DNA from: Sphaerolaimus hirsutus
Lineage: Eukaryota > Nematoda > Chromadorea > Monhysterida > Sphaerolaimidae
NCBI GenBank assembly: GCA_964036195.1
Contig: OZ038452.1
Coordinates: 30,887,785-30,951,784 of the forward strand
DNA length: 64,000 nt
Direction: 5' to 3'
Shown here: positions 20,676 through 54,362 of the stretch, in pieces
Layout of the letters: each line of letters starts with the position of its first letter
How positions within the stretch are numbered: the stretch's first letter is position 1
The notes under the pieces: model-generated
What the model was told of the DNA's origin: nothing
What the model saw: only the letters and a program-made list of their open reading frames with translations
Database searches by the model: none
Translations under genes and position numbers: made by a program

Positions 20676-23600
20676 GTGCGGATTTTTATAAGTATTGCAT
20701 TTTTTCGCGTTAAGCCCAATTCATTTTCTTGCGAAATTAGATTTCTCCCGTCCGAATCGACGTGGTTCTGATCTGAAAAACGGGGTTTTGATGCGCGGTT
20801 CGGTGAAGTGCTCGATTTCTTTCAGTCTCGCGACATGTTAGCAGTGGAGACAATTCGGCCCTGTGCCATAACTAGTGATGGAAAAGCGCCATGGCGCTGG
20901 CGCCTGGCGCTAGCGCCAAAGCAAAAAGCGCCATGGCGCTTTTGGCGCTTGGCGCCTTTTTGCTGTGGCGCCATTGGCGCTTGGCGCTGGGGTTTGGAAA
21001 AGCGCCATGGCGGATTTGGCGCTTGGCGCTATGACGCCGTGGCGCCATTGGCGCTGGTGTTTTAAAAAGCGCCAAAAAAGCGCCATGAAGTACTCAAAAT
21101 TCATCATTATTTTATGCAGAAAGACCTGTTAAGTATAATTTACATGAGTATTTATATGTGCTACTGTCAGTGTATTCCCAGATCAACATACCCTATTCTT
21201 GATTACTTTTTTAACAATTTCCTTGTGATTGCATGGGTATTCAACATTTGTCCCATCTAATCCGAATTATGTAAGGCTTTATGTGACTTTTCATTGGACT
21301 GGTAACACTCTTCACATAGGTTTTAGCTCAATCACTATACTGAGCTCCTTCCTTGCAGTAAGTAAGTATTAGGTTGTAAACTAATGAAGTGTCTTTTTTC
21401 GCCATCTCATACAAATATACATTTGTGCTTTCCATTGTGTTGTACGTTGACCGATTTTCATGCCATTTGAGTATGTGGTGGTTTGGGGTCTGGGCTATGA
21501 TGAAATGTTTTTGTTTGCTCAAATAATCCCCCAGTCCCGAGATAAGGGGGGTCTATAAAAAGGTGGTCATTTTACGTGGCCTGTAGGTAGAAATATGGCT
21601 AACTAATCATGCGTAAAAACGTAACGACAATTTTTGTGCAGACACTCCGACGACTCGAGAACGACCATGTGCGACCGAATGACGACCTGCGGTGCACAGG
21701 GAAGTCACAGTGAACGTGCGGTTCGCTGTGCACTGCAAATCCGCCAACGAAGCCGCAGCCCCAGGACGGTACGCCCGAATGGACACTACTGCGGCCATGA
21801 ATTATTAATTGTTTCTTTTCCGTTAATTATTTAATTACTTCCCGTGTGACGCAAATTTTTAATTTTTATTTTAGTGATTCATTAATTAAGCTAATTAGGT
21901 TACCCGCATTTTGAGTTAATTAAGTGATTACTCTCGTTTTTCTTTTTGCATTTTCCCAATATGTAATGTCGAACGTCATAATTATTAGGTTTTTATCAAG
22001 TTTACATTTTAGTTAAAAGGGTGCAGTGTCTGGGAATGATTTAGAAAGGTTCTTATGTTTCTAGTTAAGCTAACAGGTGTTAACTCTGTTAAATGCTTAG
22101 ACGCCCCGATAGATAACATTCAGAAAATTCCCCGACCAAGTGCATTTTTATTTAGGACTAGGTAATGGGTGGAAAAGTGACAAACGGCAATTATTGCAGA
22201 GCACAGTTTACAGTGAAGAGCACAGCAGTGCCAATTAATTATTCCCATCACCCAGGGTGATTGGTGAACTCATAAGTGCTAGTGTCTTGTGGCGTGTGTT
22301 CATGCCCGAAGTTTCCAACCCTTACCCGGCAATGCAATAACCTTGAACAACCCCCGCAAATGAGCGTTCTTTCTGTGGCCTTGGTCGGGCGCGCTATAAA
22401 AATATTTTTCACCTAAAGGGGCGCAGGTTGATAACACGTGTCACACCACCTGCTCTCGACTGTACCGTAACCTCTGAATAGAAACCCGGTTCTCGACACT
22501 CACCTACGAGATAAATTGTATTTTAATTACGTCATTGGTAATTACCGCTACTTTACGCTTGGTTTGACCCACATTTTACCCGCCTTGTTTAATTAGATAA
22601 TTTTCCCGCATTTAATTAATTTACTTGTGCCTTGTACGTTATGTTTACAGTTTTCCAGTGATCATTGATTACGCCTTACTAATTCGCTTATTATGGTTAA
22701 TTGTTTTGTCTTTGATTTAGTATTCAGTTCGTTTATGGTAGATTTTGGTGATTATAAAACGCGCTGATTTTACATTTTTTCACCCACTAGAGGCTATACG
22801 ACTCACTTGAGCTATTGTGAAATTGACTCTGACTACATCGCTAAATAAAGTTCCCGTGAAACCAACTTGGTCCCCCTGAAGCATACTAACTGCTTGAATT
22901 TTAATTTTAATTTGATTAATTTCGGCTTTTCATTAATTACGGCTTTCTAACAATTAATCGAAGTAAACCGCCGGCAGCAGTTACGAAAGGGAGTGGTAAG
23001 TTGCCGTGTCCGTCCTCAGGAACTGTCAGGACCCCAAGGGGTACTGGCGCCGTTCCTGATTTGCGTGTAAACATCCCCGTACCATAAAACCAATTATTTA
23101 TTTAATTAAGCACGCAATTGGAAGCGCAAAGGGACCGGAACTTGCAATTCTCTGCCGCAGCAAAATTCGACGAGTGGCGTATTTTTGTGGTAAAAACGGA
23201 AAATAGTAAAATTAGTAAAAACGTAAAATATCTGACAACTGGTAGCATAGCGAGTGGTTTCCTAAGCAAGCCATAAAGTTTTCTGTCTGGGGCGCCTGAT
23301 CAACGCCTCTACAAAAAACGGCTTCACGGATAACGAGTCACCCCAAAGGGAATTGAGATCGAGGGGGCCAGCAAGCTTACAAGGGGACACCATAGAACAA
23401 GTTTGGCACGCTGCATTGGAGAAGCAAAAACAAGCACGAAGGCGCGCGCGACAACAGAAGGCTGGGCAAGAAGTGGACGCACAACTTGCTGCAGCTGAGA
23501 GTCAAGCAGGAGACAGTGAGTCGAACGATTCGGTTAACCCTGAAACAGAAGCGCCGGAAGCGCTAGAGGAGAGTGAAAGTCAACGCTGGTCTGGACAGAC

Positions 23601-26600
23601 AGCTGAGGACACCCCGGTAATTAGGTTATCAACGGTTGAAGGTGCAGGGCCTGCGCCAGACAGTTTCAGTCAGTGGAAAACGCCAGCTGTACCGACAGCG
23701 GCACGGCAGCTAACGTCCAGCGCAGAAGCTGAAGAAGCGCCTGGGACAAGCAGACAAACTGCAGGAAAGGAAGCAGGTAAGACAGGTAAGTGGTCTAAGC
23801 TTCGGAGGACATTGGGTTGGAGCGCGGGCAGCTCATCCATATCGCCTGGAGTGCGATCGGGTTCTGAAGTCGGTTCAGACGGATACGTTGGTGACAGCGA
23901 GCCTCTAGGGCAGCCGTCGATTCAACGTGATTATCCTGTGATTGCAGCTGAGCTTGGAGCTACTGCAGATCAATTTCACTGTGATTGAAAATACCGTAGA
24001 GGAATTATTGGAGACAGCGGCGCAGAGTGGAGACACTTCCCCGGCTCTGCAGTTAAGCCCCCCGAAGAGCACTTCGACGCCGAGAGACGTGTCAGGCAAC
24101 AGCAGTCGGAATTTATCGAGCGACCAGTCGAGATCGCAGAGCGCAACTGCAAAGGCTAGACGCCAGTTAATTAAGACCGAATTTTCAAGTAACCCCCCCG
24201 TGATAACTATTAGCAGTCCCGCTAGCAGAATGACAAACAATGGCGCAAACCAGACGGCGGCCCCGGCACTGGAAGACAGATACGCGAATGTCAATAATGC
24301 TAATTTAATTTACCAAGCTACCATAATGGACCTGGACCCGGTGCAAACAACGCCAACCTGTGCACAATGGACACCTAAAAAGGCATGTGCAGCTGCAAAG
24401 AAATGGGCAAACATGATGAGTCAGGCGAGACCGGTTGGTGCTTTCTCACAGTATGGTGAACCAGGGGATTTGCGTATGGTGGCGCTAATTAAAACTGCTA
24501 TGAATTTATGGGGAAGTGACCCAGTCAATGAGGTACCTAGGGTGGAACATTACTTGAGGGAATTCGAAGAGCACCACAGCTTACATGGCGATGATATAGT
24601 TGACCTGACGACGGCGTACCAGCAGCATAATCAAGCCTTACAAAATCAGAATGCGACGCTGGGAGGAAATTCACCGGCCAGTGGCCAGCAGCCGATAGTG
24701 CTGACCAATGGTCAAGCAGCGCCCTTACAGTCATCAACGGCACCAGCGGCGCCCCCGTCGGCAGCTGGAACGAACCAAGTGAGAACTGTTACGCAGCGGC
24801 GCGCTCGATCCTGTTCGCCAGCATCCTCCAGGAGCTCGTCAGCTACATCTGAAGTGGCGCGGCCCACGGACCCGGGACAAAATTGGCAATTAGAACAAAG
24901 CAATGCGGCGGTCATTACAGCCCTAGCACAACAATGTGGATATTTTCGCGGCAAACCAAATGAGGGTTTCAGGGACTGGAGAAGGAGCTGGGATACGGTA
25001 TGTGATGCGCTGCGCATAAAATTACAGGAGCGGAAGCCGCTGGTAAAATTGTTTTTGAAAGGCAGTGCCAGAGCCATTTTCAACACGCGGTACAGAGAAT
25101 TGCGCGACCTGAACTACAAGGACATGATGCAAGCACTGGAAAAGTTCTATGAAAATCCGAATGACAAACATCATGCACAGAGAGAGATTTTTGAGACGCG
25201 ACAGGGCGCAGATGAGTCGGTACTGGAATGGGCGGTACGTTTGGAAAAATTGATAAAACGTGCCTATCCCGGCATGGGTCATGAAAAACGAGGTGACACA
25301 TGCATGATAAAATTTCATGGAGGGCTGAGAAATGAAATTCGGCGCAATGTACCTGTCACGGCGTCTATCACTTGGAAAGAGATGGTTGACAACGCACGCG
25401 CACAAGAGAGCTTTCTGGAGGCAGAACAGAGCCAGAATAAGGGAGAAAAATCCAAACAGGATGTGGTTGCCAGCGCTACAGACAAGGTAATGGACAGGTT
25501 GATGGCGCTAAACATGCCCGCCATGGCTGGACTGCCGTCCCAGGCCGACAAGACGTTAGAGACAATGGAACAGAAAATGACTGAGAGTGTTGCCAAATTC
25601 GACTCTGTGCACCAAGAGATAGCGAAGAAATTAGCGCAACTGGGCGCGTTGGAAGGTAAACTTTTGGGATTGAATAGGGACCCCCCTAAATTGCCCCCAC
25701 GAAAATTTGACAAAGGATGTTGGGAATGTGGCTCTGAAGAGCATATCAGGTATGAGTGCCCCAAACTAACCCCAGAACAAAGGGAACAGTATTTCAAAAG
25801 GAGCCGCGGCGGCGGAGCATCCAGAGGAAATGGACGTGGGCGCTGCGGAGGACAACGTGGTGGCTATCAGGGAAATAATCAAGCCCAAGCGATGCAGCCA
25901 GGTATGGTGCCCATGCAATACGCATATCCGCAGTGGCAACCAGCGCAGCCGATGCCTGTACAACCAGCGCAGACGGTACAGAGGGCTGGCGATATGAACA
26001 TGCAACCGCAAATGATGGCTTATCAAACGCCGCCAGCTAACTGGATGGCTATGGGACCGGATGGGCGCATGCAACAATATAACATGCAACCGGTACAGGT
26101 AAGTAACCCCCACGTAGAGTCACTGAACCCCACGCGAGTGTCCAGTACGACTGGAATGACCATGCATGTGCGCGAAGATGATCGCTGCATGATGATACGT
26201 CCCGTTAATAAATTAATCCCTGTGATGCAAGGCTTGGAATTAGAGGATGAGGAACCTGACGAACTGGTTCCAGAGTCACCCGAAGAGCAGCAGCGCACTA
26301 CTGGAATGCATGTGCTCGCGCAGGAGCGGGAATTCTGGATCAAACCGTGGGCATACATGCGAACTGAAAAAGGTTACTTGTTTCGAACTACTTGGCTGGC
26401 CTTCTTACGCAGGATCGGAATGCATGATTTGAGGGAAACGGACTGTACGCTGTGGCCTAATTGCCCTGCAGACGACCACTCGGACACGCTGACGGAGGTG
26501 CCCTTGGACGTGCTCATGAACATCAGTCTGGACCCGTTCCTGTACGCCATGCCGGCCGCTCTGCCGCCGCGCACGGGATCCAGCAACCAGATAGACAGGT

Positions 26601-29600
26601 ATATGGGCTTTTTGTCTACTGAGGAAGGGGTGCGTCCTGCGCCGCGCGCGTACTCAGAACCCCCTTACATGCCCCAGGTCGCACAATCGCTGTTTTTTGT
26701 GTTGACAATTGGATTAATTATAATGGGATTAGCCTTACTACCGGGCGCGGGCGCGACTACCATGCCCTCGTTTCCACTGCTCTGCAGCGACTTGACAGAT
26801 CACTACGATTTATACACGTACCCCCCTCTACCAAATTGCACGGCTATTGTTGACACTACGGCGTCATTAGAACGTCCACGAAAATTGACACTGACAATCT
26901 ACAAGCGAAATATGGTAGAATATCGTGTGGCAGCGCACAGGTGTGTGGCCTCTATCAGAACGGCAAGGACGTATCAGAATTTCTGGGGCGACGTCACGCT
27001 GGAAAAGTTTGATTCTAACCCCCGATCTGTGGGCGCCGCCAAGTGCGAAGGCATGATCAAGTATCACAAATGCAACAATGGGCCCATGACCCCTGTGAGT
27101 GATCTGGACAACGCATGGGACACCCAGTACCCCACCAATGTTAGCTACTCAGGACATGGATTATACTGTTGCAAATGGGTGAGTGAAACGACGCCACACT
27201 GTGGGCTGTTTCGAGGGGAAGTACGAATGAGATATGGAGCCAACACCATGCAAAGCACGCTGGGTGAGGTTAGCAAGTGCAATTATGAAATGGGTGCATG
27301 CACGCTAGAAGACGGCAGCCAATTGACATGGAAACCGAACCCGAAGGCGGAATGCCCTTATGAAAAATGGCGTGAAATGCATGGACGCATTAGACAGGAT
27401 ATCTGGCTAGCCGATGATCATACGCTATCATTGTCTTTCAGAGCCCATGAAGAGGTTGAGTCATGCGGCATTAAATTATGGAAATCGGACCAGGATATTG
27501 TAGTGGCGCCATTTGAGAAGGCAGTGATCCGAAGCGTCAGACAAAAACGAGCGCAAGGTCGACCCATGCTGGGAATAGTGAGCGCAGGCCAATTAGCAGC
27601 CAGCATGCAGGCGGTATACGAAACAGCAGAACAAACCATGCGCGCACAGGCCGTAGCCACATGCAAGAATGTGCAACACTTCCAAGAATTTGTGCGCCTG
27701 GCTATGAGTGAACACGCTACTACGACAGCCCGCTGGTACATGAATGATAATGAATTAATTGCCAAACCCGCGCCGGACGGATTTTTGGTTCACAAATGCT
27801 TCGCGGTAAAAACATACAAGATCATGAAAGAGGAAAAGTCTCCAGAATGCTATGAAACGGTACCTGTGCAAGTTAGTGTACACGGGCAAAATGTGACGTT
27901 GCACATGAATAGGTTGACAAACATTTTGCACTTTCAAGCGATCCCGGGATCATGCACCAATGCTCACAATCGTGTGGTAATGTTGAATGGACAGTGGTAC
28001 AAATATCTACCGGAAGTCGGCGGCCTGGAACATTTACCTATGTATAACACACACAGTTTCCCGCAGAAATGGCAACAGGAAAAAGTCAGGGATGTGCATC
28101 ATCAGATTTTTGCCGCCACGACTATGTACAACTTGTCAGAATTATTGCCGACGACCACCCTGAATGACGTATGGCATGCATATTCAATCGTGCGGCAAAT
28201 TACGCAGGGGGCGGAGCCGAGAGTGGAATCACACATGCAAAGACATCGAACCTTGGCAAAATCGGTATTAGCGCTGGGATGGTGGGATTTTGACACCTGG
28301 CGCACCTGGCTACAAGTATGGATCTATCTGATATGTGCACTGGTCACCATGCAGTATTTACTAGCCGCGCTCATGGCTGCAGCGCTGGAAACGGCCGTGA
28401 CTTTGGTGAACAGGGCAAAGGAAAAAATCAAAAGGCGACCAAAGACAGAAGAAAAGTCCAATATCATTGTCGAATTGGCTGAGGACCGCCCTAGCGAACA
28501 GGTAAAGGTAAGAACGGTAATTAACCCGTGCGTGGGAATGCCAAGTGGCATGCCCGCACTCACGGGCGCGCGTCGTTTTCCCGCTATACAATACAGTATC
28601 AACAGAAAATGCGATCTGGAAGAAGAATCGGTGTGCATGATCACTTTCTCGACGGAAGAAAGAGACAACATCCATCAAGTAGCCAATCGACGTGAAGAGA
28701 TTGTGCATGTGTACTACAGCCCATCCATTACCATAACCATTGATGGGAGAGAATATCGAAGATGTCTACTGGACACAGGCGCCATGCGTTCATTATGCAA
28801 CAGAGACGTGCTGATGCGACACAAGGAAAAGGCTACTAAGCATGATGAAGTTTCACCTATTGGAGCCCTTAGGTGTGCAGCAGACTCGAAACTTTTGGTA
28901 TTGGGACAAATGGAAGTACCGGTAACCATGGGAAACCACACCTTCGGGATTGTGTTTCAGGCAGTGAACGGATTAGCTGGTGAAATTCTAATTGGTGCAG
29001 ATGTCTTACGGCACATGGTAGTAGACCTACCTGCAAGAGAACTACGAATCCCTACGGCTAACGCGATAATTCCTTTTGACAACCCCGACCCGGAAGTGCA
29101 GCAGCGCAGAATTTACGCCATTGTGAACGAAAAAATAGAAATTCTGGCTAGACATGAAGCGCTAGTGACGGCGAAATTATCTGCCCCCATGGATGAAAAG
29201 TTATTCACAGTCATGGGATTGGATACGGTAGGCGAACGCTGTGGAGTTATGGCTGCTTCAGCGGCGTATGAAACCAGTGCCCCCGTGTTTCAGGTGAGAT
29301 GTGCAAATGTACGAAACCAGCCCGTAGTGCTACAGGTAGGACAGCGCATTGCAGTGGTCGAACCAGTGGACTGCGTGCTGAAGGTGAAACCTGGAGACCC
29401 CCCCGCTGAATGGGTGAAGCAGTGCTATGACAGAGATGTGTGTCGACAGGTTCAAGCGACTGAACCCCCCCCCCAAAGTAGCCGAAGACAAATTAGGACC
29501 TCCACTGCAAGTTGCATGTCCAGATGGACACGTGATGGAATTTACCGTGCCAGAAACATTGACGGATGAACGCAGAGAGGAACTGAAAAAGGTGATTCTG

Positions 29601-32600
29601 CAGTACAAAGAAGCTTTTGCCCGACATAAGTATGACATCGGCTACAGCGAATTAGTGGACTACCGGTTGCAATTAGTGGACAAAAAACCAATTGCATGCA
29701 GAATGTACCGGTTGAGTCTGGATGATCAGCAATACTTAGAAAATCATTTGAGATGCCTCATTGAGCACGACATCGTGGAACCCAGTACGAGCCCGTATTG
29801 TGCCCCCACGTTGGTGGTATCCAAACCGGATGGAGCGAAGCGGATGGTAATTGATTACAGACGCCTGAACGCTGTTTTGCACGCTCCCCAATTCCCATTA
29901 CCCCGCTTAGATGAAACAGTTGAATCTTTATGTAGCTGCAAGTATTTTTAGCAGTGCCGATATAAATCAAGCTTTCTATAACATTGCTTTGCATCCAGAC
30001 GATCGACACATCACGTCATTTAGAAATGTTTTTGGACAATTTCAGCTGAAACGTTTACCCATGGGATTAAAATGCTCACCTAGCTTAGCGCAACGCTGTT
30101 TTGAATTAGCTATGGCCGGTCTGATACATCGAAATGTGTTACTATACATCGACGATTTACTAATTTATAGTGCAACCTGGGAAACCCATTTATATGACAT
30201 AGGACAGGTGTTAGAAAGATTAATTAGAAACAATTTCAAAATTAGTCCTAAAAAGTGTTTTTTCGCACGCGTCACAGCCGTACGTTTTCTAGGATTTATG
30301 ATTGGACGTGACGGCGTGTGCGTACCGGACGACAAACGACACATAATTCAGGACTGGCCGGTACCCACTACCGTAAAAGAGGTCAAGGGTTTTCTGGGAG
30401 CTATCGGTTTTTTCAGACGCATGATTCACAGATGTGCAGAATTAGCTGTACCTTTGTCAAATCTCACGCGTACGGGACCACGAGAAAATTATAATAGCGA
30501 CACCCCAGTAGATTTGACATCGAAACCCAAGGCACTGGAGGCTTTTCATAAGCTCAAGGAAGCATTGCTAGGAAGCCCATGTTTGCAATTTCCCGACCCT
30601 AAACGCATGTTCATAATTATCACAGACGCCTCTAAAATTGCCGTTGCAGGCGTACTGGCGCAACGAGCAGAGGACGAGAAAATACTACATGCATGTGCCT
30701 TTTACAGCCGGAAGTTAGGTGCAACCCAAAGCAAATGGCCAGCAATTTCACTAGAAGCATGTGCAATCTACGAAAGTATACGTAACTGGCATTGTTATCT
30801 GGCGGGACGGCCCTTTGAAGTCTGGACCGACGCCAAGAGTATTTCGTGGGTAAAAAATCCTAATTTAGAGACTACCCCGCACGCCATGCTACACAAGTTT
30901 GCGTTAGCAATTACGCCGTACCAAATCACGTTCAAACACTTGAGGGGAAAAAGCAATGAACTAGCTGATGCATTGTCTAGAAGACAAGACGCACCAGTGG
31001 TATTTGACGAGAAAAAGGACCTGGATGAGGCTTTTGAGCAGTTCGCACAAGTTACGTGCCGTGAAATCGCTATCCCGCACGATAAGCAGGTTACGGTAGC
31101 TGCGGCAAGCAGGACAGCGTACCAGCCAATCAGCGTAAACGAGGAGGCGGAGTTACTGCGACCAATCAGCGACCGGACGCGCGGGCGAAAAGAGGCGGAG
31201 TCACCCGGACTGCGAGAGCGGCAGCGGAATGCGGAAGCGCCTGGAACCGGAACAATGGCTGGTGGTTCAGGAGCCGGAAATGAAGTTGTTCCGGGTTTGA
31301 CGAGTGCAACTAAGCGCAGTACAATCATGGCACTACCTCCAATGACTTCGGTTGACAAATTGAAGCGACTACAAGCAGAAGAACCATACATAGCCACAAC
31401 TATAGAAGTGTGTCGCGCAGATAATTTTTACAGCGCCGCGCCGTATTTTATTGACCAATACGGTTTGTTACGTCGCCAGGCGGGAACGTCCCAAATACCA
31501 GGTATACAATTATACGACCCCGTATGTATTCCGTCGGAATTAGTTCCATTCGTGTTAGAATTAGCTCACAATCACCCTACGGCGGGCCATTTAGGAATAA
31601 TAAAAACATTCGAAAGATTACAGGAATTCGCGTGGTTTCCAGGAATGCGGCCAGAAAGTGCGTGCTGGGTTGCCACCTGCCCTTCGTGCAACGCCAAGAA
31701 AGGTCTCAGAGCGGCAATGCGAACTCAAATGGTGTGCCGCCAGGTAGCCAAAAGGCCAGGTGATGTGATAGCGGTAGACGCAATAGGACCTTTACTAACC
31801 ACGAAACGCAGAAACCGACATGTGTTAGTATTTGTTGATCAGTGCACACGTTTTGGAATTGCCGTGCCCGTTCCCGACATAAAACAAGACACAGTATCAT
31901 TTGCATTTCTGTTGCACATTTTGCCTATATTTAGTGTGCCGGCCATTATACTCAGTGATAACGCCCCTAGCTTTACCGAGGGCACTTTTGCCAAGCTTCT
32001 ACAATATTTGAACGCGACCCAACATACATCATTTGCGTACACCCCCAAGAGCAACGGAATGGTGGAACATAGGAATGGTGTTCTGATGAAAATAGTATCA
32101 CACTATGTAAATCGTACCCATGACGATTGGGACATACATTTAGGCGCCGCTGTACACGCGTACAATACATCGAAACACCCTTCCTTGCAAACCACCCCCT
32201 ATGCGTTGCTATTTGGCAAGCCTGCTGCGTCCATGTGGGAGCGTATGATCGAGCCTCCCCCTGACAACGAGGCATTGCCCTCATTGCCGCATAAGCGCGC
32301 TCTTATAAATGAATTAGGCGCGCGTCTGACCACAGCACGCGAAGCAGCGCACACCGCTTTAGCAAAGGCGCAGCAAAAAGAGCAATTTTACGCCAATCGC
32401 CGTGCGCGCCGATTGAATGTGCAACGCGGGCAAGCAGTACGCGTATACACGCCGCGCATTACTCAGTTGACAGGCCCCAGTAAGAAATTCGCGCCTCGCT
32501 TTATCGGCCCGTATGAGTGCATTGATTATGCCCACCCATTAGTGACTTTATTCAACAATATTAATAAGAAAATCTATGTAGTTCATGCAGACCGTTGCAA

Positions 32601-35600
32601 GGCAACCAGTGAATATTTAATTCCCCCTTCTTACAGTGAATTATACGGCGACGACTAAAATTGATTAATTAGCTGATTAATTAGCCGTTACGACCATCGC
32701 CGCCGCGTCAAACAACACGGAACCAGGTACAACAGGTATGAAGTGTGTGTGAAAGTGTGCGTGTGTTTTTAGGAAGCTCGTGCACCCCTTTTGCCCACGG
32801 GCAACTGGACCGCACGAGTTCTTATTACTTTCCCCGTTCATAAAACTTTGTAATTAATTAGTTTATCACATTGTTATCATTATAATGGCTTCGGCCTCTC
32901 GCAAACGCCCATTTGAAGGTGCCCATTAAATCCAAGGAGACAAATACACATGGTGCCTGCGGCGGCGGAACCATTCCCCCGCGACAACTTTACCGCGCGC
33001 AGCAGATGCAAAATGGACCGGAAATCTACCCCAGCAGAGGGAAATTCGAAGGTTGGGTAGATAGGGTGTATATTGACTCGGGCGCCGACGGGCATGTTGA
33101 GTATCAGTGCCATGTGAGAATTTCTGAGCAGACGATGGCGATACTCAGCGAAAACGAGCAGTGGGTGAATGCGGATGAAGCCTATCCGTATTTTTATTAT
33201 TCTAATAAGCGGGCCAAGGCGGCTAGGGACAAACGAACCTCCCAGCTGGTGGATTTGTGCGCGAAAATTCAGAAACAACACACCTCGATGTTTCTGCCCC
33301 TGGTGCGCCACGGGATGCGTTTCTCGGCGACCGCAATCGCACAAAAAATAGAAAATCCCAGGTACTGGGAGTTTACCGGCGTCGTGATATGGGGTAATCA
33401 GACAAAGTGCCCCTTAAACGTTGCCGCCCCCGTGGTCGTGAGTACGCAGGGCACGCGGCGCGTCACTCAAGCGGCACGTACATTGACGCGCGGTGAAACT
33501 TCCGGCTACCAGCCCTACACGAGCGACTGGAAAACGGCGCGGCTGCGAGCGGCCTTCACGCCATCGAATTACAAAAATCTGGAACCGCTGGGCGCGGCGG
33601 AGCGGGGCGATGCCGGGCCGGAAAAGTTGGTCATTTTGCACAGAGAATATGTAAGTGACAGTAGAGTGGAAAATTTGAGTGCGGGACAGTTGGGGCTGGC
33701 CCACGTCGAATATCACGACCTGAACGATTTGGACGTGTTCGGCGACGAATTCTACGGCCATGCGTACGGACTGCAGGTCGCCACGGCCGAGGACATCAGC
33801 ACAACGGGCATCCAGCCAGACACAGAGAACCGAGACAACATGGACGCGTTTCTCAGGTATAAATTGGGTATTTTAGCAGCGGCCCACTGCTATAACGAGT
33901 CATTTTTGCGATTTCGGGCGAAACGCGCAACGGATGTGTGCGCGCATGTGTCCTGGGAACACACGCCGCAGGGCACTGCATGCGACATTATGGTGCGTCG
34001 CCCGGACCCAGAAGAATTACAAGCTGATACTTTCGAAGGACCAGAAGAGCAGCGCGTTCGTCTGCTGGAGCAGGTAAATACGCAGACACAGCTGTTGAAC
34101 CAGGCGACGCCCATGTCGGTGTTGAGCTTGGTGCTGGCCAGACCGGACGAAGACAAACCAGCGGCGGGTAGCCCCAATCTATCAGTCAGAATTACCAGCG
34201 TGGAATCAGAGCCAACCACTACAATGCTGCGTGCGAAGTTGGACATGGCGGCGTCGCAATCAGCACTGCCCCGAACCCTGGAAAGTGGAAGATACATGGT
34301 GCGCGGCTCGAACGACTCGCCCAATTACGACCGAACCATGCGGTCGCTGCAAGCCGCCCTGAACAAAGCGCCGGTCGGCTGGGTGCCAAAAGTGGTCCAG
34401 GGGTCAAAAGTACTCACCCTGGAGGCGCAAATCCAATTAGCAGTGATATTGAATTTGCATCTGCTGGATGACGAAACTGACTGGGCGCTCATTAGCCGCG
34501 AGGCTAATGAGTTGTACGAATCATTGTTCAGAGGAAAAAACGAACAAATGATTCAGGCCAAATTAGGTGAGTTTCTACCGCAGCAGGGACAGGTAGAAGT
34601 TTTAGGAGCTGTGATCACAGCCGTGCGAATGCGCAAACCCCTTTTGATTATGTGTGACTCGCCTTTCGGGTCCGGGAAGACGACCACACAAAATCAACTG
34701 GCGTATGTGTGCTCACGCGGCTATAATTATTATAACTCGAGACCCAGGGTGCGCGCGGGCTCCGACTTGCCATCGGACAAGCAGCCGAACGCCAAATACC
34801 ATTCGACGCTCATCACGTGCACGGTCAATTCGGCGGCCGATGAAGGCGCGCGCAGGGCCCTGACCAATCTGAATAAATTAGGGCAGCGGGATATTTTTGG
34901 GGCTTTGGAAGTTTTGTTGCGGGAGCGCGCGAAATGGACCGCTATGGCTGATACGCCATTTTCTGAAATGAAAAAACTGGAGGGTTTTGAAGAATTTTTG
35001 AAATTAAGAGCGGCATTTCCGGTGCGCGTTTTGAGCCCCATGTGGGAAACTGACCCCACCTACAATACCACCCCCGCGACCCAATTGCCAACCCTGCATA
35101 CCCAGGCACAGCGAACCGGCCACAACATCGTCCGCCTCAGTCCCGAATGGACGGCAGCGCTGGAGAAGTACGACGGCGCCAAGAAGGACTACGAGCTGGT
35201 GGACGAAATTATCAACAACTGCACGGACGACGCCGTTATACGTGCACAGCTGACCGAACAGGTGCCATTTCTCACCGCCGAAGATGGAGACGAGCAGCCA
35301 TTCGATGACTTCGAGGCAGGCGTGGCGGGCGCCCGGGCTGGTGAGGCTAGTTTAGCTGACCAGGGATTTTGGGGTAAGGTGCTGCGTAGGGCGCTGTCTA
35401 AATATGTCAGGGCTACGGTCAGGCTGCACCGGGTGTTCTTGGAAGTGGTGCAGCCCGGTCAAATCCATGTCACTTTAGACTCCGCCCACGACGCCCGTAT
35501 AAAAAGTGTGATTGCGTGTGCGGTAATTATTGATGAAGCGTCTTTGGCGTCTGACGCTGCAGTAATTAGCGTGGTTCAGGCGGCTCAGCTCCCAGTGAAC

Positions 35601-38600
35601 GGCATGCTACTTCTATTTGGAGACAGTAAACAATTGACGCGTATGATTCGCGTGCAAGACTGGGTGGAGCCTGTCCTGAAACCCGACCCCACCCTCATTG
35701 ATAGGCTCACACAATACCAACTATGTCCCGTGGTTCACTTGGAAACAGTGTTCCGCGGGCATCGCCAGCTCATTCAGGCCAACTCAGTGGTGGCGTACAA
35801 CGGACTGCTACGCGCCTACAACGACACTGCAGCGCACGGCGCCACCATGTTGCCCGCACCTGGCGACTTCGAGGATGGCGTCATGCTGTCATCAATGTTG
35901 GTGCACCAGGGCTGCAAATCAAAAGAGGGCATGTCCATTATCAACAAAAAGGAGCTGCGCATCATCCTGCACCTGTACGACTACCTCGTGGCCACAGTGA
36001 AAGAAGATCCCACCCTGCCCTGGGCAGATCTTACCGATCCCGCTAGTTTGCTAATTGTCTGTTTTTATGCGGCGCAGGCGCGCGCCCTAATCAGTCGACT
36101 AGTAGCCCATACAGAACACGACGCGGCTTACTGGGCCACCCGCGTAATTACTGCCGATAAAGCACAGGCCCGGGAAGCGGAAGTGGTCATCATTTCCTGC
36201 GTGCGCGGCAGCCCGCCAACCGACTCCGCCCAGCTGGATGCCGATCCCAAAAAGGCGTACGGTAGAGTTGGATTTGTGGCGGAGTTGCCCCGGGGAAACG
36301 TAGCCACCTCCCGCGCCAAATGTGTGCGCATCGTGGTGGCCAACGCCGAGACCATGTTGTGGTCAACCTTTTTCCACCGGTTTCTGACGGTCGAGCACAA
36401 AGCCGACCGGATTTACTCTTACGAGTCAGGCCAAATTTGGGGAAACGTGTTGGGATTTTGGCCTCCGGAATGGCGCCCGCGGGCCGACTTGAAAGAACTA
36501 GTCGGACCAGACAGATACCCGGCCCTCGAAGAAGAACTGCAGGCGGAATGTTTGTCTGACATTGAAACCGCCACCGCGGGCTCTGACTCCTCCGCAGACG
36601 CGCGGGAGGAGGGTGTGCCGGTGTTGGAGGAAGTGGTGCCCGTTGTCGAACCAGTTTACCACCCTAATGAAGAATATTCCCCCATTAGCAACGACATGGC
36701 GGCCATGGCACTGCAGAACGTAGCCGAGCCCCCTTCGCCGCCGCCCGAGCACCACGACGCGGTCGAGGCCATCCCACTGCCACCGGAGGAGGCTCCAGCG
36801 CAACAGGTAGAACACCACATGGAAAATGGTAATTGTGAAAATTGATACGAAACAATTTTTGTCAAAAAACCAGTTATCAAGGTTTCAATGTAATAATCCA
36901 TGCACAACTTTTTGTCATCAGGAGAAACAGACAACTCTGTAACAAAAAAATAATCAGCAAACAAAAAACATACTTGTTAATATTCCATGAAAACAATTAG
37001 AAAATCTTGTCGACGATCAATTTTCACACGCACGGACTGCGACATGTCGGTCGAGCAGGTAACTTGAATGTTGATTCCAAACTGCCCATCCAACAGTGGC
37101 ACGATGCTGTGAAATAACACAGATTAGTAGTCTGATTAATTAGTTTCCAAAATCAAAAAAGAAAAAACTTTTTCTCACATCGAGCCCTGAGCGGGAACCA
37201 ATATTTCGAAGTTTCGAGCACAAAAAGCCGGCACGGCAGAAAGCTGATGCCATAATTCGAATGAAGACGAGCCATATTTGCACCCCCAGGGCATGTGACT
37301 GCCACAGCCGTCCACCGAAAAATGCAGAGAAGGCATGATTTTTGAATAATCAAAAAACGGCGCAAAACACTTTTTCTGAACATGCCGTTTTTAGCCCGGA
37401 GGTAAAAAATTAATGGCTGGTGGGATTGTAGGTAGAAATATGGCTAACTAATCATGCGTAAAAACGTAACGACAATTTTTGTGCAGACACTCCGACGACT
37501 CGAGAACGACCATGTGCGACCGAATGACGACCCGCGGTGCACAGGGAAGTCACAGTGAACGTGCGGTTCGCTGTGCACTGCAAATCCGCCAACGAAGCCG
37601 CAGCCCCAGGACGGTACGCCCGAATGGACACTACTGCGGCCATGAATTATTAATTGTTTCTTTTCCGTTAATTATTTAATTACTTCCCGTGTGACGCAAA
37701 TTTTTAATTTTTATTTTAGTGATTCATTAATTAAGCTAATTAGGTTACCCGCATTTTGAGTTAATTAAGTGATTACTCTCGTTTTTCTTTTTGCATTTTC
37801 CCAATATGTACTGTCGAACGTCATAATTATTAGGTTTTTATCAAGTTTACATTTTAGTTAAAAGGGTGCAGTGTCTGGGAATGATTTAGAAAGGTTCTTA
37901 TGTTTCTAGTTAAGCTAACAGGTGTTAACTCTGTTAAATGCTTAGACGCCCCGATAGATAACATTCAGAAAATTCCCCGACCAAGTGCATTTTTATTTAG
38001 GACTAGGTAATGGGTGGAAAAGTGACAAACGGCAATTATTGTCGGCATGCGACTGCAAGACACATGCAGAGCACAGTTTACAGTGAAGAGCACAGCAGTG
38101 CCAATTAATTATTCCCATCACCCAGGGTGATTGGTGAACTCATAAGTGCTAGTGTCTTGTGGCGTGTGTTCATGCCCGAAGTTTCCAACCCTTACCCGGC
38201 AATGCAATAACCTTGAACAACCCCCGCAAATGAGCGTTCTTTCTGTGGCCTTGGTCGGGCGCGCTATAAAAATATTTTTCACCTAAAGGGGCGCAGGTTG
38301 ATAACACGTGTCACACCACCTGCTCTCGACTGTACCGTAACCTCTGAATAGAAACCCGGTTCTCGACACTCACCTACGAGATAAATTGTATTTTAATTAC
38401 GTCATTGGTAATTACCGCTACTTTACGCTTGGTTTGACCCACATTTTACCCGCCTTGTTTAATTAGATAATTTTCCCGCATTTAATTAATTTACTTGTGC
38501 CTTGTACGTTATGTTTACAGTTTTCCAGTGATCATTGATTACGCCTTACTAATTCGCTTATTATGGTTAATTGTTTTGTCTTTGATTTAGTATTCAGTTC

Positions 38601-41600
38601 GTTTATGGTAGATTTTGGTGATTATAAAACGCGCTGATTTTACATTTTTTCACCCACTAGAGGCTATACGACTCACTTGAGCTATTGTGAAATTGACTCT
38701 GACTACATCGCTAAATAAAGTTCCCGTGAAACCAACTTGGTCCCCCTGAAGCATACTAACTGCTTGAATTTTAATTTGAATTTTATTAATTTCGGCTTTT
38801 CATTAATTACGGCTTTCTAACAATTAATCGAAGTAAACCGCCGGCAGCAGTTACGAAAGGGAGTGGTAAGTTGCCGTGTCCGTCCTCAGGAACTGTCAGG
38901 ACCCCAAGGGGTACTGGCGCCGTTCCTGATTTGCGTGTAAACATCCCCGTACCATAAAACCAATTATTTATTTAATTAAGCACGCAATTGGAAGCGCAAA
39001 GGGACCGGAACTTGCAATTCTCTGCCGCAGCAAAATTCGACGAGTGGCGTATTTTTGTGGTAAAAACGGAAAATAGTAAAATTAGTAAAAACGTAAAATA
39101 TCTGACACCAATATGCACATTGACTTTGAAGCTTAATAACTCAGCCATTTCTGGGCCGATTCGGATCGTTCAACACTTAAAATGACCAGGACAATCCGCA
39201 GATTCAATTTTTGTGGTCGAGTTAGTGATGTCTTAATCCCGTATGCCGATTTGACCCGGTTTTTGAACATCAAAAATAATCGTAATTATAATTTTTCAAG
39301 ACGATTTTTTTGAAGTTGCTTTAATTTACTATAGACAAAAATAATAAATCTGGCCCAAAAATTATTTCAATATCTCTCTCCAGTCAAAAGTTATATCACT
39401 TTAAACATTCGCCTCCCAACAATAAATATAAAAATCTGCATGACGAGCAAATGCATGTGACTTCAGAAATCCACATCTCGGCCATTTCTCAGCCAATTTC
39501 CACCAATGAACACTTAAAATGATCAGAAAAACCTGTAAGTTTCATTTTTATGCGCAGGTTATCTGTATTCATCGTTCTTGATTAGTTATTTACATGTATG
39601 GGAGGCGGAACTTTAAAGTTCTATTACTTTTGATTGGAAAGAGATATTGAAAAAAAATTTTGGTATATTCATTTCATTTCAACAACGATATCACGGGTGG
39701 CTACACGAGTCATGGATATAAACTGTGTGTAAAAAGAAAAAATGCGATTGTAACATACGACAGGTACATCATGAGGCGTTATAGGTGAGAGTATCGGTGA
39801 ACTATAAAGCACGATCAAATAACCATGTGTAATATTTTACATATATAAGATAACCGGTTTTAACGATACCAAGGCCTTGGGTTTAAAATTTTGAGCTTAT
39901 AATAGCGAGGCAAAATAACAGTATTACGAACGAATATGTACTTAGAGGTTGAGGTATGTATAGTGGACTTTGGTATTAGAAAACCGCATTTTATGGTTGA
40001 GTTATATATTGTTCACTCTCCCATTGGTTTTCTGTGAGTGCATCAGATTGAGACATTGATAATGTTTTGTCTGTGCATTTATGTGGAGAATGTCATTCAC
40101 CATTTCATGCTCTAATTACGGGTACATTTATTATGTTCCTCACATTAGAGCAGATTTGGATCTTTCTAATCATGCATTGCTATCATTCTCAAGTGCGTGC
40201 ATGACATCCACTTCCCCGATATGCACTTATAATGTTTACATATATTGTTATCTAGGACGATTATATGTATAATTAATCATGCATTATCTGTGTATATGTT
40301 TGTCACTATGGGTCACAAGATTTTTATCAAGGGCAGACAAATGCGAGGAGAAAATTGATCGTGATTTGGAGCATTCCATTGCTTGGATTGTTTTGCATCG
40401 ATCAATTGGTGCTGCATGCACTACGTTCATGCAGCATAATTTTCCACAACATTCTGTCTTCAGAGCTTTTAGTAGCATACTTCTCCAAAGAGATACGGTT
40501 GTATGCGGACATGCATATAAATAGTGTGGCATCGTTGGCAGTATAAGCAGCTTGTCCAGATTCTCTCCTGGTTCCGGTTTTGCTTATATTGTATATAATT
40601 TTGAAACAAGCCATGTCTAAAAAACACCCACGCAAGATGAGTGGATAATGTTACGTATACATTTAATGGCTTTGGTGATCCAACTAGATATCATTCGAAT
40701 CGTGATCTTGAAGATTTTAGTGATCCGAGGGATATGTCATTCCAGGCATTTTGCTTCGTAATTATTCGAATATCATTCTTGCCTGTTGACTGGTCCACCC
40801 TATTTTCTTTCTGTTCAGTTAGTGATCTACCTAAGGCACTATGTCTACAGACGCTATTGTTTTTTAACCTCGTCCATTCAGTATACGCCAGTTTTGTAGT
40901 TTTACTAACCTTAGTGCTATCGAGGTATCTCTGATGATTTATCACTATTTGGGCATACCAAGCTCTCATAGTGGTAACATCACCATTGATAGCCAGACAC
41001 CTGTTCGAAATATAGGATGGTGATTGTGTCACCTTCCTATACACCGACATTTGTATCCCTACCAGCCTTCGCAACATACATTTGTTCAGGCCATATATCT
41101 CTACGCCATAGAATATTTTCGACATGGCATAGAGCGTCCATAATCTATTAACTGCCCAATATGGGCGAATAGAGTAGGAGCTCAACTCTGTTACTAGTGT
41201 AGCGGCTATGTGAGCCCACTGGATTGTAAGTAAGCGTTGTTTGTTAAAACAATCCTTGTCTGATGAAAGAGTTATACCTAAGTATTTTATTTCATTTACT
41301 TCACCAATGGATTGTAGCTCTCCTTTACAATTCCTACCCAGAGACCAGCATTTGTGATTTTGAGCTTTTTGCCCAAAGTGCATTACTTTGCTTTTGTCTG
41401 GGTTTATGGCAACCCCCCAACGCCATGACAATTCTGTAAAGCGGTGCATGATCCGCTGAAGGTCCCTGTCGTTGTTTGCTAAGAGAACTATATCATCGAC
41501 AAAGAAAGTGGCCGGTATATATCTATTATCTAATTTAGCACCTATGCCCAATTGTTCCAGATCCGTTCTAAGGTCTGCCATATATAGCACATACAGGCTA

Positions 41601-44600
41601 GGTGATAGACAGCATCCTTGGCGTACACCAAGGATGTAGTCCATTTCCGGACTATAGTTATCACCATATTGTATGATACATTTCAGGTCGTCATACGTAC
41701 CCGAAATTGCCTGTATAAACTTGCTCGGGTATCCATAGTCAGCTAATTTCAACCATAGCTTGTCTCTCGGGACTCTATCAAATGCTTTAGTTGCATCAAC
41801 AAAGCAACCAGACAGATTAGTCCCGGATCTGAGACACCCCTGAATGATAACGTGGTTGTCTGTGGTTCTTCGTTTTTTACAAAACCCACCTTGCATACAA
41901 CCAAACCCTCCCACTTGCTCAAATGCATTAAGGAGTCTATCGTTTAGAACAGAGCAATATAATTTTAGAATGTTACATTGTAACCCTATAGATCTATAAT
42001 TATCTATGTTACTCTTAGGTCCTTTCTTGTGCAAGAGTGACAATTTGCACAGTTTTGCCCTTTGTGGTATATGAATCCCCATTGTCTAAAGTATATGATA
42101 GCATGTTTAGAAAAATTTTATTTTGGTGTTTAAAAACTGGGTCAAATCGCATACGTAACTTAGACATCACTAATCCGACCACAAAAATGGAATCTACTGG
42201 TTGTGCTGATCATTTTAAGTGTCAAACGATCCAAATTGGCCCAGAAATGGCTGAGTGAGTAAGGTTCAAAGTGAATGTGTAGATCGGCCATGCAAAATGA
42301 CCACCTTTTTATAGACCCCCCTTATCTCGGGACTGGGGGTTTATTCGAGGAAACAAAAACATTTCGTCATAGCCCAGACCCCAAACCCCAACATACTCAA
42401 ATGGCATCAAAATCGGTCAACGTACAAAAGAATGTGGGATGCACAAATGTATATTTGTATGAAATCGAAAAAAGACACTTCATTAGTTTACAACCTAATA
42501 TAAAGTGACTGTAAAGTGTAATGTTGAGTAATAAACATCATCCAATATTTCATAAATACAACTTTGTTAAGTGTCATGTGAACTGTCAAAAGTTGAATCA
42601 AAAGCTTTTATTTTTTATTTTGATTGACATTTGACATCACATTTACTTCTTGACATTTGACACTTGATTTTACAGGGTGTGGAATAACTTTCTGAAGCCA
42701 TTCCAACAATGGCAATCCAAAATTTGAAACCTCAAAATCCTGTGTTCAAAAGTGACTAGCAAAACTTGAAACTGCACTATCATAGTAGAAAAATCAAAAG
42801 TATTCCAAAAAAATTAAAACTTAAAACTTAAAAAACACCTAAAATTTTGAGAACTTTTTACAGATGGTGTGCTATACTTAGCACAAACACCCAGCTGCAA
42901 AATATCAAGACAACAAGAACAAAAGTGACTGCAGTTGACATGTATCTTGCGCCAAAAACAAATTAATTGCAGTGCATCAGCATAGCCGCATAGGTATATG
43001 AGAAGCCAAAAATGATTGGCGCTGGCGCTATTGGCGCTTGGCGCCATTGGCGCTTGGCGCCGTGGTCTAGAAAAGCGCCATGGCGCTTTTGGCGCTTGGC
43101 GCCATTTTGCTCTGGCGCCATTGGCGCTTGGCGCTGGGGTTCGGAAAAGCGCCATGGCGCTTTTGGCGCTTGGCGCCAAAGTCCTGGCGCTTTTTCCATC
43201 ACTCGCCATAACGCATGTAAACCCATCACGCATGCAGACCCAGCATGCATTTCACTATACCAGACATGCTGAAAATATGCAATAAAACATATTGCCTAGT
43301 GATTTTGAAGGTGACAATCTATAAAAAGTATGAAAATTAGCGACTTTGGGAGAACAAGATGATGAAATTTCTCAAAAGCGCTCCAGATAGCTAGATAGCC
43401 AGGCAATTTGCGGGGGGGGGGGCTGTTCAGAGAAAAGTAGCCCAAAAATTTGCCTCTGTGATTGATAGATAGCTGGGCGGTTTGCGGTGGGGTTACCTTC
43501 CCCATTTCTTACCCCTGCAGGCATATTGTGTCTATAATGGGTCTACATGCGTAACGGGTTTACATGCGTAATAGGCCTGGCCCGACAATTCACCCATTCT
43601 GAATCAGGTGGTTTACACTGCTTCACAAATCAATGTCCAAAGTATGCCACCTTGGGCCACTCCAACACATTTTAAATTTCATGTAAAATCTAAAATGACA
43701 TGCAAGGTCACGTAAAATGTGAAGGACTTTTGACACTTGGCATGACATTTTACATTTTACAGGACATTACAGGGTCTGGCAGTTGCGCACCTGGTTCATG
43801 AAATGTGGTAATGCAAAAATGTAGAATTTTCTGAAAATATTTAAAAGTATTATCTGAAAAAATATCTCAAATCCAAAATATATTTATAATAGGCAAAACT
43901 GTTTCAAGAAACCATGTGTAGTGTTGTATAAAGCGACAGAGCTTTTACATGACTAACCATACAATTAATTGCTCATGGAGTGACATAACAAATTCGAACA
44001 ATTGGTGAAGTACATCCATTGCGACACAATGCATTCTTCCGGAGCACTTCATGGCACTTCACAACGAAATTTCACCGGACCATTTTTCTGTGCATCACAA
44101 ATTGAGTTTTTGCCACACATTTGAATTGTGCAATGTATTTACAATTCCCAACAAAACAAATTAGGCAGCTAAACAAAATCCAATCTGGCAAATATTTACA
44201 ATTTCCAGGAATAGCGATGGCTATTTTGATGGCTTTCTCGATGTGAATCTGGCCTATGACATCAAAAACGAAGACACAATTTTCAATGAAAAATTTGGAG
44301 CCGAATTTTTGGAGTCTTCAATCAGTAATGGAGTTATGTTCCAGCCGCATGTGAATGAACTGATTGGCCCCATGGAAAAGGGAGCGTTTTTGCACAGGGC
44401 TATTGAGGACTATGTCAGAAATGGATTACTGGATGCACAAAGTGGCGTTTATGACTTGTTGCATGGGCACTTCTCCACTTATTGTTTCATGTGAGTATTG
44501 GCGCTACACGAGCTAGTTTTCATGGGGGATGGTCCGGCCGTAAAGTAAACCCGGCCGTAAAGTAGAGGGTGCTACTTTAGGCCGGGCATCATTACGGCAG

Positions 44601-47600
44601 AGTTGTTTAAAGTACTGAACATTTTTCAAAGTAAACGTAAACGTAAACTATTTTATTTTTAGTCACACCTGAATACAGAAAACGTAAAATAAAATTTTTA
44701 TACTTTTACGCTGTGTAAAAGGTGAGTAAACGTAAATATCTGTAAATACTCGTTTTCTGTACTCGCGTACTTTGAAAAAGTACGCGAGTAAATGAGTACC
44801 GGTATTTTTTCGGGGGAAACGTAAACGTATTTACGCAGCACTTGAGTATACATATTTATCGAGTAAATGTAAATACGTTTGTACAACTATGCCTTACGGC
44901 CGGAGTTACTTTACGGCCGAGATCTCGCCGTTTTCATGGTTCCAATTTGAAAATTCAACAAAATTATTGTTGATTTCCTTAAACAGTAGTTAAACAGTAG
45001 TGGACCGATTATTTCTGTAAACTAATAATTGCATCATAATCCTAATAATACATCGTGCACTAAGCTTAGTTAGTGTCCACTGGCCAGTTACAGGATAGTG
45101 GAAGCGGGAGGTGGAAATACAGCTGGATGCCATAAAAGTTTCATAAATTAAAAACCGGAGGATTCCATCCACATTTCTTAGTGCAAAAAGTAATCTTTTA
45201 AACTTTTTTCATCTTTTCTGGTAATTTTTCCAGGATCGGGATTGGGATTTGAAAATTTTGGGAACAGGATTGGGATGAAGTTTTCGGGATCGGAACTGCC
45301 AAATCCGAAAATTATCTTGAATTCGGGATCCCACTTAAACCCTATAGGAATCATTCAATGGTGAGTTATATTGTCATCAGAAAATTGCATAAATGCACGC
45401 TCCATTCATAGTATGAATGAGGTTAAATTAGTCACATAAATTTTTACGTGTGAGTTCCACTTTCTTAATGTAAGCAATGGAATCGTGGGGACGGGCAATA
45501 AAAGGGGCCCAGTTATTTGATGGGGGGAAGCTTTTATTTGTCATTTAGGGGACGATGGTTTTTTTAAAAAGGGGACAGTTTTTGAGGGTAGTGACTAGTG
45601 ATGGAAAAGCGCCATGGCGCTAGCGCCAATACAAAAAGCGCCATGGCGCTTGGCGCTAAAACGCTCTGGCGCCATTGGCGCTTGGCGCTGGGGTCTGCGA
45701 AAGCGCCATGGCGCTTTTGGCGCTTGGCGCCATTTTGCTCTGGCGCCATTGGCGCTTGGCGCCGGGATCAGAAAAGCGCCATGGCGCTTTTGGCGCTTGG
45801 CGCCGAAAGCATGGCGCTTTCTCCATCACTAGTAGTGACTATACGCTTTTCCATGCTCGAGTTAAACTAAAAAAACCCCAACACACTGGGATCACAAAAA
45901 TTGAGTGTAACACTCATAAATTGCTCCTCTGCACGGAAATCTTTAGTAAAAGGCGAAAGATTTTCTCGACAGATGCAGAGGAGCCAGAGCTGTTCACGGT
46001 TTCCTTCCGTTGATATTGGTCATTCGCTTGAAACATGTTTTCTGCGGGTTTGTGTTGCTCGCACTCACTACCGATAATCCTGGAAATAATTATAATAGAA
46101 ATAAATTATCAATAGATGCGAAATGAATTCAAATACACCTTTCCAATTTGTTATATTTTTATTCCAAATTTATTTTGTGTTTGTCGTCCTTAAGCATCAT
46201 GCACACCGCGCAGGGGCACTCCCAGACCCTGTGAAGTATTTACCTTGTAAAATGTAAAATGTCATGCAGTGTCAAACGAAGCTTGTCATACAACGTGACA
46301 GAAGCATGTAAAGTGCCCTGTAAAATGGCATTTTACATTTTACAGGGTTTGGGATTGGCACTAGAACCCAGTTCCAGCTTGGGACAAAAACACAAATGCA
46401 TGTTTACAATACACAGTCTTCATACCTACCTAAAAAGACACACATGTCACTGAAGATGTACTTATTTCCCATCCAAATCAGCACTGGCACACTTTCAGTC
46501 CGGAAAGCGAACACGACGCCCTCCTGCGAACTCGGCTAGAGTTGTCCAACTTCGAAATTGGCCCGCTGCGGTGGGAGGACATGCCGCTGGTGAACAGCAA
46601 GTGGAAGTACGGCAGCGAGGCGTCCTTGAAGAAAATGCGACACGCCATTGGCATCATGCCAAGTGTGAGTGTCTTCATTTTTGAGAACATTGGTCGTCTG
46701 TGAACTTGCGTGTGTACTCACGAGATTCGACATTTTTTAAATGCATACACCAAAAGTACTATAAGTCGATACTTAGTGATGGAAAAGCGCCATATCGGTA
46801 GAGCCAAAGGAAAAAGCGCTTTCGGTGATTGGCGTTATTTTGCTGTATCGCCATTGGTGTTGGCGCCACACTCATGAATGCGCCATGGCACTTTTGGCCC
46901 TTGGCAGTATTTTTCTGCGGCGCCAGGAACAAAACACCTGGCGCTAGTGCCAAGGCAAAGGCAAAGGCGCCACGGCGCTTGGCGTCATTTGATCTGGCGC
47001 TGGGGTTCAGAAAAAGCCCTGGCGCCGAAGTGCCGGCGCTTTTGCCATCACTACTCATGCTCAATACGTACATATTTACCTGGCATATTTCCAATACATT
47101 GCACCCAGCTCAGGTGTGCTTGCGCGACAGACAGACGGGTGAGCTGGCGGCCTGGGAGATGTCCTGGCCCAGCGGACTCATGAGCAACATGCACACCGTC
47201 GACAACTACCGCAGACAGGGTCCGTGCGCACTGTATTTGCTTGATTACTTTTTGGTACCAACCTTTTGAATAAAGTTGCCCCATAGTTGTTAAAACTTAC
47301 CGTATTTCCTCGAATTACCCCCCTCGAATTACCCCCCCCCTCGAAACACCCTCCCCCCTCGAAATACCCCCCTCAAAATGGGCACTAAAAACCCCCCCTC
47401 GAAATAATAAACCCCCCTCGAATTACCCCCCTCGAAATACCCTCCTCAAAATTCTCACTCTGAAAAAATAAACCCCATGGGGGTATTTCGAGGAAATACG
47501 GTACTTACCTTTACTCATAAAATACGTATACTCGTGTACTGAGTAAATACGCTTACGTTTCCTCTAAAAAAAGTACCAGTACTCGCTATATGTCGTGTAT

Positions 47601-54354: not shown

Positions 54355-54362
54355 GTAGTAGT

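Follow-up and report, generated by a model that had tools for sequence, protein, structure and literature searches.

A UPF1-like helicase gene, family-wide and under purifying selection, in an env-bearing Ty3/gypsy-type element of the nematode Sphaerolaimus hirsutus

We analyzed a 64,000-nucleotide stretch of the genome of the nematode Sphaerolaimus hirsutus (assembly GCA_964036195.1, contig OZ038452.1, forward-strand positions 30,887,785 to 30,951,784), hereafter the window, which corresponds to C3:30887785-30951784 in the 348-Mb, 762-contig assembly that was searched. The window contains an env-bearing long terminal repeat (LTR) element of the Ty3/gypsy type, 17.5 kb in length, at positions 21582-39107, which carries a separate open reading frame (ORF) for a helicase between pol and the 3' LTR. 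The 5' LTR (21582-23237, 1656 bp) and the 3' LTR (37427-39107, 1681 bp) lie on the plus strand, as do all element features described below; both begin with TG and end with CA, and they differ by only 4 substitutions and one 25-nt indel, in agreement with an earlier note on this DNA that had described nearly identical LTRs flanking the helicase frame.

The helicase frame of the window copy is open from stop to stop over 1319 codons (32886-36845), and its first in-frame ATG, at 33006, yields a protein of 1279 amino acids (aa). In 28 of the 29 other copies fetched from the genome, the protein starts at the ATG corresponding to position 32885 and reaches 1323 aa in 27 copies and 1320 aa in L007, the latter because of an early stop near its end, while L018, like the window copy, reads 1279 aa from the later ATG. 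Where the first ATG is used, the protein opens with MASASRKRPFEG in 27/28 copies, L026 being different.

The helicase core, from GSGKT to the end of the AAA_12 domain, spans 34668-36347, with AAA_12 proper at 35691-36347 (E 9.9e-25, 87.7 bits, cut-off 27). The motifs GSGKT (34668), DEAS (35532), GDSKQL (35619), and NVATSRAK (36297) were all present, as the earlier note had named them within the motif set of a superfamily 1 (SF1) helicase. Its description of an N-terminal part of about 540 residues with no recognizable family also held: the region at 33006-34650 amounts to ~550 residues, and a Pfam search of the N-terminal 548 aa gave no match at E<=10, so that no UPF1 CH zinc-binding domain was found. 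Under the motif numbering that we presume to apply (I, II, III, IV, V, and VI), motifs I, III, IV, and VI were identical in 30/30 copies, and motif II in 29/30. The nearest solved proteins by sequence in PDB were a 5'-3' RNA helicase-like protein (E 4.9e-6) and UPF1 (E 0.011), and an alignment with five weak UPF1-class relatives (P0001-P0005) placed many motif residues in invariant columns. The helicase is thus UPF1-like at the superfamily level, and to that extent the earlier assignment stood; orthology to UPF1 is not established, since no UPF1 zinc domain was found and the match to AAA_11 fell under its cut-off. A virus-type helicase (Viral_helicase1) was rejected, as no PF01443 match appeared at E<=1, a weak discriminator given that P0001-P0005 all carry precomputed PF01443. 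For the N-terminal part, the best hit in PDB was a weak one to norovirus 3C-like proteases (E 0.31), which we attributed to chance. Structure models were of poor confidence (mean pLDDT, the predicted local distance difference test score, 38.1 and 31.3) and of no use.

We assessed the presence of the helicase across element copies with three sets. For the first, copies were chosen by the noncoding 3' untranslated region (UTR), which avoids picking them by the helicase itself; these are the best 40 of 194 candidates, window copy included, and are probably young because they are the most similar to the UTR of the window. Upstream of this UTR, all 40 copies (the window copy and 39 others) show a match to AAA_12. 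A helicase frame of at least 1300 aa is present in 36, and AAA_12 and the 3' UTR are separated by 499 bp in 39 copies and by 484 bp in the other. For the second set, the best 150 of 638 integrase candidates (window copy included), at least 133 copies have a same-strand helicase match within 12 kb downstream among the matches listed, 118 of these at no more than 600 bp; among the pairs farther apart, a few may involve a neighboring copy, and the other 17 copies have no helicase match among the matches listed. The third set comprised the best 150 of 454 AAA_12 candidates. Of these, 148 were taken to be element copies on account of scores that vary little (89.7-97.8 bits) and of the profile range, and the frame reaches 1300 aa or more in 99 of the 148. 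Two further AAA_12 matches in short frames, at G000:C65:86011-86712(-) with 177.7 bits and at C14:4125120-4125530(+) with 146.6 bits, probably belong to other helicase genes.

The earlier note had proposed that the helicase moved with the element, and had named two findings that would speak otherwise, namely that other copies lack the ORF, as after a one-off capture of a host gene, or that the ORF is a separate transposon nested between pol and the LTR. The proposal was borne out. Presence of the helicase in 40/40 UTR-chosen and at least 133/150 integrase-chosen copies led us to reject the one-off capture. In 29/29 other fetched loci, the alignment runs in one piece from the integrase through the helicase, and in 28 it continues into the 3' LTR; that of L014 ends at 37289 because this locus holds Ns. 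The helicase frame is separate from that of pol, as a nested mobile element would have it, but with the pol side of the frame aligned unbroken in every locus, the LTR side in 28, and the near-constant distance to the 3' UTR given above, nesting was rejected and is almost certainly not the explanation.

Selection was measured in 30 copies including the window copy (29 fetched), the best-scoring by protein match of 35 scored from 612 candidates. Across the 435 pairs, the helicase shows a mean synonymous divergence (dS) of 0.093 and a mean nonsynonymous divergence (dN) of 0.0045, with a dN/dS of 0.048, and the integrase part of the same 30 copies has a dN/dS of 0.047. By part, the ratio is 0.050 in the N-terminal region (33006-34538), 0.043 in the core, and 0.064 in the tail; a codon model applied to 29 copies, with L007 left out for its stop, gave an omega of 0.060. 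This stop, near the end of L007, makes 1/30 copies with a stop in the helicase (L028 has one in the integrase part). A neutral simulation of one helicase frame, using the observed divergence and a star tree, produced a mean of 6.5 stops per copy, with 0/300 runs free of stops. Codon variants shared by at least two of 29 copies were nonsynonymous in 24 cases and synonymous in 227, compared to 99 and 195 among singletons, and therefore selection was strong while the lineages spread and weaker on recent changes. Gapped columns, counted in 29 copies with L014 left out for its Ns, amounted to 0/3837 in the helicase, 66/609 in the 3' UTR, 41/236 in the pol-helicase spacer, 70/900 in a stretch of the LTR, and 21/1206 in the integrase, all of the latter from one copy. 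Based on the copy-wide presence, the low dN/dS, and the skew of the shared variants, we concluded that the helicase is selected as part of the element and is a regular gene of the element family; purifying selection acts on this gene as strongly as on the integrase part. The same counts bear on the idea of a captured host gene kept for the benefit of the host, or of a passenger without a role for the element. That LTR elements can pick up ORFs downstream of pol is known (PMC6431247), but the family-wide presence of the helicase, a constraint equal to that of the integrase part, and selection that acted on shared variants and less on singletons make this idea very improbable.

Conserved splice-like signals suggest how the gene may be expressed. 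A candidate 5' splice donor in the leader, ACAG/GTAAGTGG (23782-23793; the slash marks the junction), was found in the window and in 10/10 other 5' pieces (11/11), and a candidate 3' splice acceptor, TTTTTAG/GAAGC (32760-32778), is located ~110 bases 5' of the helicase ATG in 27/30 copies, the string being missing in the other 3. No ATG intervenes between the acceptor and the helicase ATG in 26/30 copies. Because both donor and acceptor are conserved, the helicase is probably translated from a spliced subgenomic RNA that would join the leader to the acceptor before the ATG.

From its class, the helicase is predicted to be an ATP-driven 5'-3' translocase, and the name given by its depositors to the nearest PDB entry, 5'-3' RNA helicase-like protein, agrees. 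The protein may be a nucleoside triphosphate-driven 5'-to-3' translocase of the UPF1 class that works on the element's own ~17.5-kb RNA or RNA-DNA hybrid, a tentative assignment to which we give somewhat less than an even chance. It would free this nucleic acid of structure and of bound proteins ahead of its translation, packaging, or reverse transcription, with the N-terminal ~550 residues as a possible specificity or regulatory part. For the overall explanation that we favor, an element gene expressed from a spliced mRNA whose product is a motor on the element's own RNA, the chances appear balanced.

The main rival, possible though doubtful in our estimate, is counter-defense: the helicase would block a UPF1-class factor of the host or compete with it, either by acting as a decoy or by removing the complex from the RNA of the element. 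The target would be UPF1-dependent decay of the long multi-ORF RNA or a restriction of the MOV10 type, MOV10 being a member of the UPF1-like helicase class. Proteins in arms races often change faster, which counts against this rival, as every part of the helicase tested is strongly constrained (dN/dS 0.043-0.064); because the constraint is even, a housekeeping role for the element fits slightly better than counter-defense. On the side of counter-defense, the core is UPF1-class by its AAA_12 and PDB matches, MOV10 restricts retroelements (PMC3475670, available portion), and silencing suppression is among the roles proposed for insect retrotransposon helicases in the accessible parts of two reports (PMC6338049; PMC5563155).

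An unlikely alternative is that the helicase helps at the DNA stage, either by displacing strands or removing flaps on complementary DNA, or during integration or entry into the nucleus. The N-terminal MASASRKRPFEG forms a basic patch, possibly a nuclear signal, and among NCBIfam models the IGHMBP2 family helicase comes nearest, with 50.7 bits, far under its cut-off of 348.9. Against this alternative, Pfam finds no nuclease or DNA-binding domain in the helicase ORF, and, to our knowledge, LTR elements perform their DNA stages without a helicase of their own.

Several observations weigh against the favored reading, in which the helicase is a conserved UPF1-class motor of the element. We know of no LTR element that needs its own helicase to replicate, and a replication need is thus not established. 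The AAA_11 profile, for the N-terminal RecA domain, scored 18.7 bits, under its cut-off of 27, although GSGKT and DEAS are present, and motif V in the window's form is exact in only 14/30 copies. The window copy itself is imperfect: the earlier note had placed the ORF at 32885-36845, and the frame was confirmed as open from 32886, but its start was not, since a frame break directly after the ATG at 32885 puts this ATG and the stop at 36845 in different frames (3961 bases). Frames were shorter than 1300 aa in 49/148 copies of the AAA_12-chosen set, and therefore decayed copies are also common. Finally, the choice of the best-scoring copies for the dN/dS analysis favors open frames and a low helicase dN; that choice did not act directly on their integrase part.

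The searches for relatives either are suited to close ones or score just those candidates that have most words in common with the query, and eukaryote relatives that are distant or unlisted could escape them. Within this scope, the whole helicase had no relative at E<=1e-3 among the best 7997 candidates from 5.8 billion proteins, and the core alone gave 5 weak matches among the best 7998 candidates (best E 1.1e-3). No relative was found in IMG/VR with either the helicase or pol as the query, or in the GTDB prokaryote genomes; one weak PHROG match of unknown function was obtained (E 2.4e-4). With the cellular UPF1/SMUBP2/SETX class, the protein shares the SF1 helicase type, AAA_12, and motif residues common to the five weak UPF1-class relatives, while it differs from cellular UPF1 in that the zinc domain was not found and the best protein match, among the candidates scored, had an E of only 1.1e-3.

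The literature searched, with most subscription journals outside it, contained no LTR element that we recognized as having a separate UPF1-like helicase ORF. The closest element in layout is Burro, a giant Gypsy-like element of planarians, which likewise places gag and env together in a long frame ahead of the protease and has an env resembling mononegavirus fusion proteins and many extra domains (PMC6431247). That ORF1 is 4,873 aa long compared to 1,875 aa here, the extra gene of the present element is a separate ORF after pol, and no helicase is named in the part of the Burro description that was consulted (PMC6431247). The Burro-type layout, with env in frame between gag and protease (the latter under its cut-off), is present in the window, compared by architecture alone. 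SF1 helicases with their motifs kept also occur in insect retrotransposons; as far as the available text of the reports goes, those derive from plus-strand RNA viruses and are found in LINE (long interspersed nuclear element) proteins or fused to LTR-element proteins in Diptera and Hymenoptera (PMC5563155; PMC6338049). In contrast, the present helicase is AAA_12/UPF1-like, occupies its own ORF, and has no PF01443 match at E<=1. Bdelloid LTR elements similarly carry a captured enzymatic ORF3 after pol, there expressed from spliced messages, but the types given in the accessible portion are GDSL esterase, DEDDy exonuclease, env, CC, and TM, with no helicase ORF3 noted and the word helicase occurring once in the whole report (PMC5408684). 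An env inside a gag-pol frame and virus-type helicases in retrotransposons are therefore already known from these portions of the literature (PMC6431247; PMC5563155; PMC6338049). A free-standing, UPF1-like, family-wide, and selected helicase ORF had no precedent in the literature searched.

Reverse-transcribing elements are thought to manage with reverse transcriptase (RT), RNase H, and integrase. That selection keeps a separate helicase gene here as strictly as the integrase points to an additional motor being required in one lineage or more, whether to handle a large RNA or to counter RNA surveillance by the host. A class of RNA/DNA-unwinding motor otherwise known from cellular RNA control and big RNA viruses is here the element's own preserved gene. 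Among the latter viruses, nidoviruses, whose RNA genomes are the largest known, invariably have in their replication complex an SF1 helicase with a fused zinc domain (PMC6211748); the present helicase is likened to nidovirus HEL1 by its SF1 class, not by sequence. By analogy, the addition of a UPF1-class helicase to a 17.5-kb retroelement might be a comparable solution. We are evenly divided on the broader proposition that a retrovirus-like lineage, with gag, env, and protease in one polyprotein and a length of ~17.5 kb, turned a UPF1-class helicase into a gene of its own that is essential for replication or against restriction, as a long-RNA solution parallel to that of nidoviruses and without LTR-element precedent in the literature searched.

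The remaining coding capacity of the element consists of ORF1 and pol. ORF1 (23942-29569, stop to stop, 1,875 aa) combines gag, an env-like glycoprotein, and a protease in a single frame. It contains a Retrotrans_gag domain (25043-25282; E 8.8e-6, 26.3 bits, cut-off 24.1) and a zinc knuckle (25715-25765; zf-CCHC E 0.015, below cut-off) at the place expected for gag. The env-like Monjiviricetes fusion glycoprotein domain (27242-28018; PF24664, E 2e-7, 29.8 bits, cut-off 27), which the earlier note does not mention, sits between gag and protease and is flanked on either side by hydrophobic stretches. A probable aspartic protease follows at 28730-29002, also at the expected place, with DTG read in the translation and a PF13650 match below cut-off (E 0.067). 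In copy L052, the ORF1 frame is open over 5.7 kb with gag and env in one frame, and no protease match was obtained there at E<=0.1. PF24664 matches elsewhere in the genome (best 68 of 1557 candidates) often lie within very large single open frames, with one class of ~2,900 aa, another reaching 5,000-6,806 aa, and others of <1,500 aa; examples are G000:C1:17083501-17083923(-) and C1:28191791-28192213(-). The large frames may represent giant Burro-like elements whose frames exceed the 4,873 and 5,140 aa given for Burro (PMC6431247).

The N-terminal part of RT (29418-29951) was assigned by reading and alone gives no RT match, and the remainder of pol (29911-32658) has RVT_1, RT_RNaseH_2, RT_RNaseH, Integrase_H2C2, and rve matches above cut-off, in the order RT, RNase H, and integrase, as for Ty3/gypsy (Metaviridae) elements. 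Pol is of a distant gypsy type: the 20 pol-type matches found cover part of it, with identities of 22-34%. The change of frame inside RT (29911-29951), with an in-frame stop, has a near-identical context in L051, the one other copy examined, and because of this common context we suggest a candidate programmed frameshift rather than damage. A run of ten Cs at 29465-29474, in the overlap of the protease frame and the first pol frame, is a candidate slippery site.

A probable primer binding site (TGGTAGC..., 23240-23260) begins 2 nt past the 5' LTR; ACTGGTAGC follows this LTR in 10/10 other copies, and the bases beyond vary. The 3' untranslated stretch that served as the noncoding query (36846-37426) ends with GGCTGGTGGGAT adjoining the LTR. 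The two LTRs differ at 0-5 sites in 10/10 copies, and therefore each insertion is young, despite a silent-site divergence of ~9% between copies. A 4-bp target-site duplication is present in 8/9 other readable copies (L047/L048 lacks one, and L037/L038 is unreadable), and a clean one is absent at the window element itself, with ..GGCC on the left and CCAA.. on the right. An inverted copy of the left flank is found at 42286-42500 (92% over 217 bases) and goes on to match the right flank (39116-39279 against 42279-42118, 85%). Because both flanks continue in one inverted copy, the window element looks like a single insertion within a repeat. A second RT frame at 40691-42082 on the minus strand (RVT_1 E 1.4e-26), perhaps from a non-LTR element, lies within repeats related to these flanks. 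A solo LTR of the same family as the element's LTRs (56038-57714, plus strand), ~90% identical, is flanked on both sides by ATTT. Repeated DNA rich in GGCGC is common to 20886-21055, 43015-43203, 45638-45830, 53939-54360, and 61672-61872.

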